Below the pieces are notes generated by a model. The model had not been told where the DNA came from. It saw only the letters and a list, made by a program, of their open reading frames with translations, and made no database searches. A stretch of 34,738 nt of DNA from Desulfobotulus alkaliphilus (GTDB lineage: Bacteria > Desulfobacterota > Desulfobacteria > Desulfobacterales > ASO4-4), in assembly GCF_007830435.1 (NCBI RefSeq), contig NZ_VLLC01000032.1, positions 1 through 34,738 on the forward strand, read 5' to 3'. Shown here in pieces: positions 5,166 through 30,771 of this stretch (the stretch's first letter is position 1; every line of letters begins with the position of its first letter). Both the position numbers and the translations under genes were made by a program.

Positions 5166-5259
5166 TGGCACGGGCGAACAGGCTGCCTGCCATGCTCCGT
5201 GCCCACATATCCCAGGGCTTCATTCTTTTATCCTGTGAAGCCCTCGGATAATTGGGCAC
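5166..5259 (-). promoter_or_regulatory. Leader of qmoABC with mutually exclusive stems
   Basis: Read on the minus strand, an outer stem (5253-5259 with 5200-5206, GTGCCCA/TGGGCAC) encloses a perfect 9-bp hairpin (5236-5244 with 5215-5223, AGGGCTTCA/TGAAGCCCT). The 3' side of the outer stem overlaps a segment (5198-5204) that can instead pair with 5168-5174 (GGCACGG/CCGTGCC). The two folds cannot coexist. The pairing is seen in the sequence; a switching role is inferred. The region ends about 45 nt before the qmoA start. Confidence 0.5.
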
Positions 5260-8495: not shown

Positions 8496-8815
8496 TTCGA
8501 CACAGTTTTCCAAGTACCATACCTGCAAGACAGATGCACAGGCCCCAGGCTATTTGCCCGTGACGCAATCTTATTCTTAGAGCTTCTTGCCCTGTGCGGA
8601 AGCGGCAAAAACTCCCCGCCACAGGCAGGATAAGCTTTTTGATTACCATGGCAGGCCTAAGCACGCTGCCTTTGTGGCGGCTCAGACAGTTTGCCGCTTC
8701 TTTCGCACAGGCCTGCAAAGCTCTGATCCGAAACGATTGCAATGTCACTTGCAAATAGCCACGGAGCCTTGCAACAGTACAAAACTGATGCAATTACAGC
8801 ATTGGCAGTGCTGAA
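8496..8815 (+). repeat. Dispersed mosaic repeat, copy 2 (no nested insert)
   Basis: About 320 bp, collinear with copy 3 (10740-11139) except that the 75-bp palindromic insert is absent and a short segment near the right end (TCAGAATAAAC in copies 2b and 3) is missing. Where copies 1 and 3 carry the insert, this copy has AATCTTATTCTTAG. It lies in inverted orientation to copy 1. A 103-codon frame on the minus strand is broken by a one-base length change in copy 3, so a protein is unlikely. Confidence 0.85.
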
Positions 8816-8854
8816 TAATTATCTTGCTTTTTATAGTAGGCTTTGTTTTTTTAG

Positions 8855-8971
8855 CTTGAGTGCCGGAATCCGAAACGTTTGCAATGTCCCTTGCAAATAG
8901 CCACAGAGCCTTGCAACAGTACAAAACTGATGCAATTACAGCATTGGCAGTTCAGAATAAACGGTGCTGAA
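8855..8971 (+). repeat. Partial repeat copy 2b
   Basis: The right-hand 100 bp of the repeat (from ATCCGAAACG to TGCTGAA), nearly identical to the end of copy 2 just upstream, so the two form a local direct duplication. Its left end is fused to CTTGAGTGCCGGA (8855-8867), which is 13 nt of the inverted end of the nested insert. This suggests rearrangement at the insert end. It ends shortly before the YkgJ gene at 9018. Confidence 0.8.
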
Positions 8972-27005: not shown

Positions 27006-27926
27006 ATGCACAAAGACAGCATCCTCCTCATTGATAAACCTCCCGGCCTCAGCTCCGCAGCCGTGGTGGCCCGGGTAAAAAAATATTCCGGCATAAAAAA
27101 AGTGGGCCACGCCGGTACCCTTGATCCCTTTGCCACAGGCCTTCTCGTGGTCTGTCTTGGCAAGGCCACCCGGATTTCCCGTTACTTTCTGGGTGGAAAC
27201 AAATCCTATGAGGCCACCCTGCGCCTCGGAACGGCAACGGAAACCCAGGATCCCGAAGGCGCCATCACAGCCACCCTCCCCGTACCGGAGGTGGATGAAA
27301 AAAAGCTCCTGAAGGTATGTGAAAAATTTTCCGGCCCCATACTGCAGAGCCCGCCCGTATATTCTGCCCTAAAACACAATGGGGTTCCCCTTTACCGCCT
27401 TGCCCGTCAGGGTAAAGCCGTACAGAAGCCCCCAAGACAGGTGGTCATTCACCGTTTGCAGCCTGAAAGCATCCAGCTGCCGGACATCCGGTTCAGCGTC
27501 CACTGTTCCTCGGGCACCTATATCCGTACCCTTGCCCTTGATATGGCCGAAGCGCTGGGCAGCACCGGTCACCTTGTCGCTTTAAAACGAACGGAAACCT
27601 GCGGCTTCAGCCTTGCGCAGGCAGCTTCCCTTGATGATACCCTGAACAGCCTGCAGACGTCACAGCCCATGCCTTCCCTGATTCCCATGGCCGAAGCCCT
27701 TGGCTTTCTGCCTGAAATCCGTGTGAATAATACTTTGACGGAAAAGATCTTTCATGGCAAAGTGCTTGACACAGAGGAGATCAGCGCTCCTGTTCCGGGT
27801 CCCATACGGGTGCTGACGGAAGATGGCAGACTTGCCGCTGTGATTCGAAGGGATGAAAGCAGACAGGGCCTTTTTTCTTATGATGCCGTACTGCTGCCCC
27901 GCACTGCCCCAGGGGGGCAGCTTTAA
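27006..27926 (+). CDS. truB: tRNA pseudouridine(55) synthase
   Basis: 306 aa. It makes pseudouridine 55 in the T-loop of most tRNAs. The catalytic Asp is Asp40 in GHAGTLDPFATG. Other family blocks are LIDKPPGLSSAAVV at the start, KSYEATLRLGTATETQDPEG and CSSGTYIRTLALDMAEALG. The length is normal. It follows the DHH gene by 12 nt with only a weak ribosome site, so translation may be coupled. A 166-nt gap then leads to rpsO, the usual neighbour. Confidence 0.97.
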   Translation: MHKDSILLIDKPPGLSSAAVVARVKKYSGIKKVGHAGTLDPFATGLLVVCLGKATRISRYFLGGNKSYEATLRLGTATETQDPEGAITATLPVPEVDEKKLLKVCEKFSGPILQSPPVYSALKHNGVPLYRLARQGKAVQKPPRQVVIHRLQPESIQLPDIRFSVHCSSGTYIRTLALDMAEALGSTGHLVALKRTETCGFSLAQAASLDDTLNSLQTSQPMPSLIPMAEALGFLPEIRVNNTLTEKIFHGKVLDTEEISAPVPGPIRVLTEDGRLAAVIRRDESRQGLFSYDAVLLPRTAPGGQL

Positions 27927-28092
27927 ATAAAGCAAGCCCGGACAGACATGCCGTCTCAAAACAGCCTGCTGTCCTTTATTAGAATATCCCCATGCATACT
28001 GTTTAAGCGCTGGTGCTTACGGTCTGAATGGAATATCGGATCGAAAACGCATAGGGATGAAGACATGATTATTCCAAACAAGGAGAAACACC

Positions 28093-28362
28093 GTGGTATT
28101 TACCAATGAGCAGAAAAAAGAAATTATTGAAAAATTCAAAACCCATGAATCCGACACCGGTTCTCCGGAAGTCCAGATTGCCCTGCAGACCCACCGCATT
28201 TCCTACCTGACCGAGCATCTGAAGATTCATAAAAAAGACCATGCCTCCCGCAGGGGGCTCCTGATTCTTGTGGGCCAGCGCAGACGCCTGCTGAACTACC
28301 TGAAAAAAAAGGAAATGCAGCGTTACAGAGACATCATCGCAGCCCTCGGACTGCGGCGCTGA
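28093..28362 (+). CDS. rpsO: 30S ribosomal protein S15 (GTG start)
   Basis: 89 aa, the standard length. S15 binds 16S rRNA early and forms bridge B4. The sequence includes the signature [13 protein letters not shown] and the [21 protein letters not shown] helix. The start is GTG 28093, six bases after AGGAGA. It is followed by a terminator-like hairpin and then pnp, as in most bacteria. The leader between truB and rpsO may carry S15 feedback control, but no site was recognised. Confidence 0.98.
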
Positions 28363-28369
28363 TTTCAAG

Positions 28370-28397
28370 GGGGAAAAAGGGTTTTTCCTTTTTCCCC
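28370..28397 (+). terminator. Hairpin after rpsO
   Basis: GGGGAAAAAGG (28370-28380) pairs perfectly with CCTTTTTCCCC (28387-28397), loop GTTTTT, then GGTTTTAT. Probably a partial terminator that lets rpsO be expressed above pnp. Confidence 0.7.
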
Positions 28398-28472
28398 GGT
28401 TTTATCCACAGGGCCTGTTTCCTTCTGTCTGGAATAGGCCCTGCCCCATTCCAACGCCCATGCCCATACGAG

Positions 28473-28549
28473 GGACTTCCGCAAAAACACCTTTACGACT
28501 CTGCAAACATATGAAAATCCGAGTCGTCAAGATGTTTCTGCGTAAGTCC
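28473..28549 (+). promoter_or_regulatory. Long stem-loop in the pnp leader, candidate RNase III site
   Basis: Positions 28473-28501 pair with 28521-28549 in a single register without bulges: 25 of 29 positions are Watson-Crick, with four 1x1 mismatches, and a 19-nt loop. It lies 51 nt before the pnp start. In E. coli the pnp leader carries a similar long duplex, cut by RNase III and then used by PNPase to repress its own mRNA. The pairing is seen; the function is inferred from that case. A dispersed inverted repeat is the main alternative. Confidence 0.65.
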
Positions 28550-28599
28550 GTTCCAGCGTATTTCCGGCACACGGGCCTTCGTAAGCAAGGAGTTTTTAT

Positions 28600-30771
28600 A
28601 TGCAATCCACCTTTTCTGCAGACATCGACGGAAAAACCATATCCATCAGTACCGGGAAAATTGCCAAGCAGGCATCCGGTACAGCCATTGTTCAGTGCGG
28701 CGAAACCGTTGTCATGGTTACGGCGGTTTCATCCAGCGAAGAACGGGACATCGACTTTCTTCCCCTCACCGTTGAGTATCAGGAAAAAATCTATGCGGCT
28801 GGCCGCATTCCGGGGAATTATTTCCGCAGAGAGATGGGCAGGCCCAGTGAAAAGGAAATTCTCACCTGCCGTCTGATCGACCGCCCCATCCGCCCCCTCT
28901 TTCCCAAGGGCTACAGCAGTGAAATCCAGATCATTGCCACTGTCCTTTCCATGGACAAGGAAAACGATCCGGATATCCTTGCCATCATCGGCACCTCTGC
29001 GGCACTGACCATTTCCGATATTCCCTTTGAAGGCCCCATTGCCGGCATCCGTGTGGCAAGAATCAACAACAGATTTGTCTTCAACCCCACCCTCTCGGAC
29101 CTTAAAACCCCCGGCTGTGATATGAACATCGTGCTGGCAGGCTCCAGAACGGGTATCGTCATGGTGGAGGGCGGAACCGACTTTGTCAGTGAAGCCGATG
29201 TACTGGATGCCATCTTTTCCGGACACGAGGCCATGCAGCCCCTGATCCGGATTCAGGAACAGCTGCAGGAAGCTGCGGGCAAAGCCAAGCGCAGCTTCAC
29301 GCCTCCTGTTGTGGATGAAGAACTGGCTGCCAGAATATACGAACTGGCTGCCGCCCCTCTGGCTGAAGCCCTGAAGGTCGATGATAAAATGGTCCGCAAG
29401 GCCAATGCCAGTGCCGTCAAAAAACAGCTTCTGGAAAGCCTCGGTGAAGAAGGTGCAGAGCGTAAAAATGAGGTGATGTCCCTTTTTGACAGCCTCATGA
29501 AAAAGGTCAGCCGGAAAATTGTCCTTGAGGAAGGCACCCGTGTGGATGGCAGGGCCTTTGATGAAGTCCGGCCCATCCGTTGTGAGGTCGGCACCCTCCC
29601 CCGCCCCCATGGTTCCGCCCTCTTTACCCGTGGTGAAACCCAGGTGCTGGGTGTTCTTACCCTGGGTTCCGGAAGGGATGAGCAGCGCATCGAGACCCTT
29701 TCCGGCGACGAATCCAAACCCTTCATGCTGCACTACAACTTCCCCCCCTACTGCGTGGGCGAGGTCAAGCGCGTGGGTTCTCCCAGCAGAAGGGAATTCG
29801 GACACGGTGCCCTTGCCACCCGTGCCATTGAACCCATTCTTCCCAATACGGAAGATTTTGAGTACACCATCCGCCTTGTCTCCGAGGTTACCGAATCCAA
29901 TGGTTCCTCTTCCATGGGTACCGTATGCGCCGGCACCCTTGCCCTCATGGATGGGGGTGTTCCCATCAAGGCCCCCGTTTCCGGTATTGCCATGGGCCTT
30001 GTGAAGGAAGGCGATCAGGTGGTGGTTCTTTCTGATATTCTCGGTGACGAAGATCACACCGGAGACATGGACTTCAAGGTGGCCGGTGGTGAAGCCGGGA
30101 TCACCTCCATCCAGATGGACATCAAGATCACGGAACTTTCCAGGGACATCATGGAAAAAGCCCTTGCACAGGCCAAAGAAGGACGCCAGCATATCCTCAA
30201 GGAAATGCTGGCTGCCATTCCCCAGACCCGTGATGCCCTCTCTCCCTATGCTCCCAAGGTCTTTACCATCAAGATCAATCCTGATAAAATCCGCGATCTC
30301 ATCGGTCCCGGAGGCAAAATGATCCGGGCCATTCAGGCGGATACCCATTGTGACCTGAATGTGGATGACTCGGGAACCGTGAAAATTTCCGCAGCCAATC
30401 TGGAAGATGCAGAAGCCGCAAAAAAACTGGTGCTTGAAATCTGCATGGAGCCGGAAGTGGGTGAAATTTACACAGGCAAAGTTGTCCGGACAACGGATTT
30501 CGGTGCCTTTGTCCAGTTAAAGCCCGGAACCGATGGCCTGGTACACATCTCTGAGCTGGCCCACCACCGTGTCAAAAAAGTCACGGATGTGGTCAATGAA
30601 GGAGAAGATCTTCAGGTCAAGGTTCTTGAAATATCGAGAGACGGCAAAATCCGTCTCAGCCACAAGGCCCTTCTGGAACCTCCCGCAGGCGCACCGGCCG
30701 ATTCCGGCAACGGAAACAGCGAGCGCCCCCGCAGGGATGATTCCAACAGCAGCAGACCCCCTCGGAGATAA
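28600..30771 (+). CDS. pnp: Polyribonucleotide nucleotidyltransferase
   Basis: 723 aa. It degrades RNA 3' to 5' by phosphorolysis as a trimer. Two RNase PH-like domains (about 10-145 and 310-540, with [20 protein letters not shown] and [20 protein letters not shown]) flank an all-helical linker. KH (about 555-615, [17 protein letters not shown]) and S1 (about 625-693, [20 protein letters not shown]) domains follow. The tail is Ser/Arg/Pro-rich. AAGGAG lies seven bases before the ATG. The leader has a long stem-loop (see 28473-28549). Follows rpsO as usual. Confidence 0.98.

Follow-up and report, generated by a model that had tools for sequence, protein, structure and literature searches.

RNase III repression of PNPase has been reported in B. 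burgdorferi, S. coelicolor, S. pyogenes, and C. jejuni (PMC8708148), and such control is therefore not unusual in itself. In E. coli, RNase III cuts rpsO–pnp and destabilises the pnp mRNA, with rpsO expression unaffected (PMC8708148), and self-repression by PNPase acts mainly via the 5′-UTR (PMC10362022). A title cited in the latter paper concerns RNase III-independent autogenous regulation in E. coli, so that feedback need not run through cleavage. In Streptomyces coelicolor, RNase III cuts an intergenic rpsO–pnp hairpin, and PNPase activity rises 2–4-fold in an rnc null strain (PMC10126417). RNase III substrates are also provided by the Correia (NEMIS) elements of Neisseria, small palindromic MITEs whose transcribed inverted repeats are bound or cut by the enzyme (PMC2649163, PMC10969869, PMC2229807) and of which the gonococcus carries over 120 copies (PMC2649163). 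MITE hairpins in mRNA can thus be RNase III sites.

The locus described here lies in Desulfobotulus alkaliphilus and shares with the E. coli leader (i) the position between rpsO and pnp, (ii) a long imperfect duplex, and (iii) in the fold, a terminator-like hairpin that follows rpsO. The E. coli K-12 leader forms 26 pairs in 30 columns and its duplex lies 67 nt before pnp, compared to 50 nt here. Homology is not apparent: R1, a model built from five pnp leaders of the window type, leaves the E. coli locus (L236) unmatched at E ≤ 1, and blastn of the rpsO–pnp stretch against E. coli genomes returns nothing. RNase III cutting at the present locus is predicted from sequence, whereas for the intergenic hairpin of S. 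coelicolor, which resembles it in location, cutting is known (PMC10126417). The Streptomyces system further differs in belonging to another phylum, in being cut at an internal loop, and in having an additional site in the pnp reading frame (PMC10126417); the available passages of that paper do not mention a repeat origin of its hairpin. Unlike the Correia elements, the duplex was found in one copy, preserved in different species next to a single ribonuclease gene. The functional kind is already known. The initial annotation had stated that the control is, to its knowledge, undescribed for this group; the open-access literature likewise yielded no description of it, nor of a probable repeat origin of a pnp leader or of MITEs in Desulfobacter*.

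The rpsO–pnp spacer and its long duplex

The window, i.e., the whole stretch of 34,738 nucleotides that was analysed, carries on its forward strand rpsO, encoding ribosomal protein S15 (28093–28362; PF00312, E 7.7e-37), followed after a 237-nt spacer by pnp (28600–30771). The 723-aa pnp product was identified as polynucleotide phosphorylase by domain search and contains RNase_PH, RNase_PH_C, PNPase, KH_1, and S1 domains. Directly 3′ of rpsO, a pattern scan places a terminator-like hairpin with a weak T tract, GGTTTTATCC (28370–28397, forward strand). It constitutes weak evidence because 2 terminator-like sites occur in 27900–28700 against a shuffled mean of 1.1. It is followed on the same strand by a second hairpin of 13 pairs with a 9-nt loop (28409–28443), found by hairpin scan, whose sequence is absent from the congener locus L004, and then by the long duplex. 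AAGGAG at 28587–28592 (forward strand) is, on inspection, the likely ribosome-binding site of pnp. The genome also encodes an RNase III gene that scores above the family cut-off.

The long duplex (28473–28549, forward strand) consists of a 5′ arm (28473–28501), a 19-nt loop (28502–28520), and a 3′ arm (28521–28549) that ends 50 nt before the pnp ATG. An independent hairpin scan recovered it exactly and confirmed what the initial annotation had claimed, namely 25 pairs in a 29-position stem between rpsO and pnp, interrupted by four isolated mismatches (C28479·U28543, A28484·C28538, C28490·A28532, and U28494·C28528). It is the top-scoring hairpin of the window, with a strict score of 34.0 compared to 30.2 for the runner-up; hairpins were ranked by this score, a more lenient one having favoured long weak stems. 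None of 2000 dinucleotide shuffles of the spacer reached the score of the duplex (maximum 28.2), and RNAfold assigns the segment 28465–28555 an energy of −32.4 kcal/mol with a z of −6.25. Rfam gives 0 matches in the window at the gathering score, and below that threshold the hairpin attracts microRNA-precursor models only (best E 0.03). The second-best window hairpin by the strict score lies at 5199–5259 and has 22 pairs, 3 mismatches, and an 11-nt loop.

A dispersed repeat in the same genome, which the initial annotation had proposed to exclude by a genome search, did not turn up. Both BLAST with the duplex (E ≤ 0.001) and a search that allowed the 5′ arm up to 3 mismatches return a single place in the assembly, which spans 4.0 Mb in 95 contigs and is 98% complete. 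Elsewhere in the window, two 93-nt direct repeats at 8726–8818 and 8868–8960 are 95% identical and 142 nt apart, and a 35-nt imperfect inverted repeat (8530–8564/8744–8778) lies near them.

Conservation and distribution of the leader duplex

Two congeners, whose PNPases are 95 and 90% identical to that of the window, have the duplex at the same place. Relative to the closer congener, 56 of 58 arm positions and 100 of 109 positions of the upstream spacer are identical. When the window leader (L002) is compared with that of the more distant congener (L004), 53 of 58 arm positions are unchanged while the loop (3/19 aligned positions identical, 7 gaps) and the upstream spacer (43/85, 36 gaps) diverge; the stretch from the duplex to pnp retains 33 of 48 positions with 2 gaps. 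Leaders from two further genomes, G022 and G011 (PNPase 65 and 67% identical), also align with the window leader.

Over these five leaders, 92.8% of cells are paired versus 87.7% in shuffles, 6 pairs are changed on both sides (equalled in 10/500 shuffles), and the covariation score is 0.292 versus 0.182 (0/500 shuffles). A further measure, the number of additional pair types, is not significant (80/500). The compensatory changes that the initial annotation had suggested looking for in relatives are thus present, although modest and drawn from 5 sequences. The apical helix shows them, with both sides altered in 5 of its 10 pairs, whereas the basal helix is largely invariant (10 of 15 pairs never vary).

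The distribution of such duplexes was surveyed in the spacers of 235 loci, with 11 duplicates removed and 3 loci lacking rpsO. The order Desulfobacterales contributed 141 spacers, 135 of which were scored, the other 6 being shorter than 40 nt. A strict rule (score of at least 24, at least 18 pairs, 3′ end no more than 100 nt from pnp, loop of up to 60 nt) identifies a long duplex near pnp in 18 of the 135, each unmatched in 200 shuffles; the spacers L230, L164, L206, L189, and L203 are missed by this rule and were inspected separately. In a quick PNPase tree of 74 rows, whose groups were named after the hairpins were known, a clade with a support of 96 unites 10 rows from five families (f1, f10, f18, f21, and f35), each of them with a scored long duplex in its leader (0/200 shuffles as good). 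The five window-type leaders alone do not form one group of this tree (2 changes; 4/500 shuffles as low). Among 14 sampled rpsO–pnp spacers of the five families, 10 of which are represented in the tree, 13 carry a long duplex, and its stem ends 17–63 nt upstream of pnp in 12 of the 13 (170 nt in L230). Of the four spacers outside the tree, three, all of family f18, have a long bulged duplex 46–53 nt from pnp (0/200 shuffles), and one of family f35 (L193) has a shorter hairpin ahead of a T run (3/200 shuffles). The motif GATGTT occurs across leaders at chance frequency (13 spacers versus 11.9 expected). The duplex is probably an RNA element of the pnp 5′ leader that has been vertically inherited within one clade of the order.

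Long rpsO–pnp hairpins of different sequence also occur in other phyla outside the order. Six loci that are alphaproteobacterial by title (L053, L066, L074, L106, L107, and L108) have long hairpins in this spacer with arms that look alike by eye (CCATGGCAGGATCGCCGG-like), and three from Nitrospirae/Nitrospirota (L046, L048, and L062) have a long hairpin with ends that appear similar by eye, 20–23 nt before pnp.

Relation to a dispersed family of inverted repeats

Model R1, run on 389 genomes of the order with 11 candidates scored per genome, gives a match at E ≤ 0.01 in at least 19, comprising the five leader genomes and 14 others. On reading, many of these places belong to one palindromic family, whose 24-base end, searched with a tolerance of 3 mismatches, is present in 71 of 242 genomes, with a highest count of 184 in G043, while a reversed-pattern control gives 0 in every row listed; the same end pattern has 0 matches in G000 (the window's own genome), G001, G002, G011, and G022. 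The 51 distinct dispersed elements that were compared are palindromic, 44–179 bp long, with ends like GGGCTCGCGCAAAAATAACTTCAC. Identical 3-bp flanks are found in 41 of them (22 TAA, 18 TTA, and 1 ATA), as expected of a MITE. In a wider sample of the phylum, R1 matches occur in at least 4 of 395 genomes (G000, G022, G428, and G457; 11 candidates scored per genome), the last two of which lie outside the order, with fetched stretches that contain neither rpsO nor pnp.

The end of the MITE-like family is very abundant in G043 (184 matches) and G021 (143). An autonomous partner with the same ends was not found among the places listed in the G043 and G021 stretches examined, for which L346 was read and L347 and L348 were scanned for ends. 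The reading frames of L344 and L345 are, by eye, ordinary-looking genes beside separate short elements, with no transposase found.

A second model, R2, was built from 12 dispersed copies and leans towards the leaders because 10 of the 12 came from the R1 search. With 150 candidates scored per genome (150 of 1212 in G000), R2 at E ≤ 1 reports the pnp leader as the sole place in G000 (1.3e-6), G011 (4.3e-6), G002 (1.1e-5), G022 (9.9e-5), and G001 (8.9e-4), and reports none in G012, G014, and G030. Among 12 further genomes, again with 150 candidates scored in each, it finds weak or dispersed places in 8, and G128 is the one genome whose pnp leader it recovers (E 8e-4); it reports no leader of the f18 or f35 genomes searched at this depth, and L009 is marginal (E 0.098). 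Pairing alone can also earn an R2 score, as L140 and L128 reach 36–38 bits. Owing to these biases (R1-derived copies, partial candidate scoring, and the contribution of pairing), profiles that score sequence only were used, with loci containing pnp-leader copies removed by hand from the profiles as well as from the flank comparison.

With a profile of 58 ends, the two arms of the duplex rank first and second in the window at 10.7 and 9.7 bits (next 1.4), and 0 of 100,000 pairing-preserving permutations match L002, L003, L159, or L012. A second profile, comprising 48 ends of dispersed copies found by pattern and no R1-found locus, again ranks the arms first and second at 8.8 and 7.1 bits (next 1.7). 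Permutations as good number 0 of 100,000 for the same four leaders and 3 for L004, and over the 135 order spacers L012, L003, L119, L002, L009, and L159 occupy ranks 1–6. Both arms are in register with the MITE-like end, the 5′ arm (28473–28501) starting at its position 1 and the 3′ arm (28521–28549) matching as the reverse complement. The terminal inverted repeats of the duplex therefore resemble the MITE-like family by R2, itself biased towards leaders, and by both profiles.

This resemblance may instead reflect chance or convergence, the leader being an ordinary pnp RNase III hairpin, a reading that is a serious contender even if it falls somewhat short of even odds. With the 48-end profile, 217 control stretches taken upstream of rpsO reach at most 10.4, above L002 (8.8), and dinucleotide shuffles reach the leader score in 1 (L002), 4 (L003), 7 (L004), 4 (L159), and 0 (L012) of 1000 cases. 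Controls and shuffles thus sometimes equal single-arm scores, and one arm alone is not decisive. The family was, moreover, found by searching for resemblance, which calls for a look-elsewhere discount in favour of chance or convergence, and the window copy, flanked by GAG and GTT, shows no TTA/TAA target-site duplication. Against these points, the two arms score far above everything else in the window and match in register with the hairpin ends, which as far as sequence goes is a stronger point than a single arm, and no permutation equals the match in four leaders; the four are related, so that their permutation results are not independent tests.

The window duplex has ends like those of the dispersed TTA/TAA-flanked family but lacks the target duplication, and where several dispersed copies would be expected of such a family, G000 has one place only. 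It is thus probably a derivative of the MITE-like family rather than a member. Window-type leader copies end GACTT(A/C)CGC on most arms, and GCGTAAGTC is common to the five leaders and absent from the dispersed-copy loci checked, which together with the tree favours one old event followed by descent. On balance, descent from a MITE that entered the region ahead of pnp in an ancestor, was retained as a putative RNase III site, and has since been immobile is slightly favoured. A locus of G033 (L223, 960–1051) has, upstream of rpsO, a weak match to R1 (E 0.24) and R2 (E 0.088) with one GGACTTACGCA end.

Candidate function and alternative readings

The reading preferred here, at a probability of roughly 0.6, is that the duplex is an RNase III-processed pnp leader through which PNPase would limit its own level, by analogy with the described systems. 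Transcripts running into pnp would fold the duplex, RNase III would cleave within the long stem, and PNPase would clear the upstream strand from the cleaved duplex, block translation, or both, so that the pnp message would be lost and the enzyme would keep its own abundance in check. The PNPase-dependent step follows the scheme of E. coli pnp autocontrol. We infer, in line with this scheme, co-transcription of rpsO and pnp, RNase III cleavage, and PNPase feedback. The likeness to an RNase III-processed leader noted in the initial annotation is partly supported, by the position, the architecture, the conservation, and the RNase III gene; what changes is the likely origin of the leader, since its arms resemble the ends of a transposon-like repeat scattered through other genomes of the order.

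The same hairpin anatomy would be equally at home in a leader where RNase III sets the stability of the pnp mRNA or uncouples pnp from rpsO without any PNPase feedback, and in E. coli the cleavage does destabilise pnp mRNA with no effect on rpsO (PMC8708148). This reading is unlikely given that cleavage in Streptomyces and E. coli is linked to pnp autoregulation (PMC10126417). Resemblance of the arms to the ends of an abundant MITE-like family could also mean that the hairpin is an inert transposon remnant before pnp with no regulatory role, and R2 matches the rpsO–pnp spacer of G124 (L164) as well, though with a low sequence-only score (−0.9). Such a role-free relic is distinctly improbable in light of the arms kept against a diverging loop and upstream spacer, the compensatory changes, and the long duplexes in nearly all of the sampled spacers of the five families.

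Two further readings concern other RNA functions. E. coli K-12 annotates sraG on the strand opposite the rpsO–pnp spacer, and the hairpin might analogously serve an antisense small RNA; this is very improbable, as the window lacks an Rfam match at the gathering score and a simple sigma-70 scan of both strands of 27900–28700 finds 0 promoter-like sites, a weak point given 0.7 expected in shuffles. That a stable hairpin within a leader acts as an intrinsic terminator or attenuator is hardly credible here, where the 3′ arm has no T run following it and the terminator scan picks only the 28370–28397 hairpin and one site inside rpsO.

Combining RNase III processing with the repeat origin gives a more specific and tentative account, which is possible but on present odds rather doubtful: a MITE placed before pnp in the ancestor of several families would have lost mobility and become domesticated as an RNase III operator for PNPase self-control. 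Reports of pnp control by RNase III come from distant phyla, and a leader duplex traceable to a mobile inverted repeat would offer a concrete route for such control arising more than once, a transcribed MITE being a ready-made RNase III substrate. The order provides a natural series, from leaders that contain the element to relatives in which the dispersed family occurs and others that have neither. If the domestication account were true, the f18 and f35 leaders and the elements of G124 and G052 would represent pnp leaders repeatedly recruiting transposon palindromes as ribonuclease sites. The latter two are rpsO–pnp inverted-repeat elements of two other families (L164 of G124, 433–551; L140 of G052, 2030–2129) that have ATAATTAATTTCACAAGGATAGA in common, and may belong to a further repeat family ahead of pnp or be distantly related to the MITE-like family.
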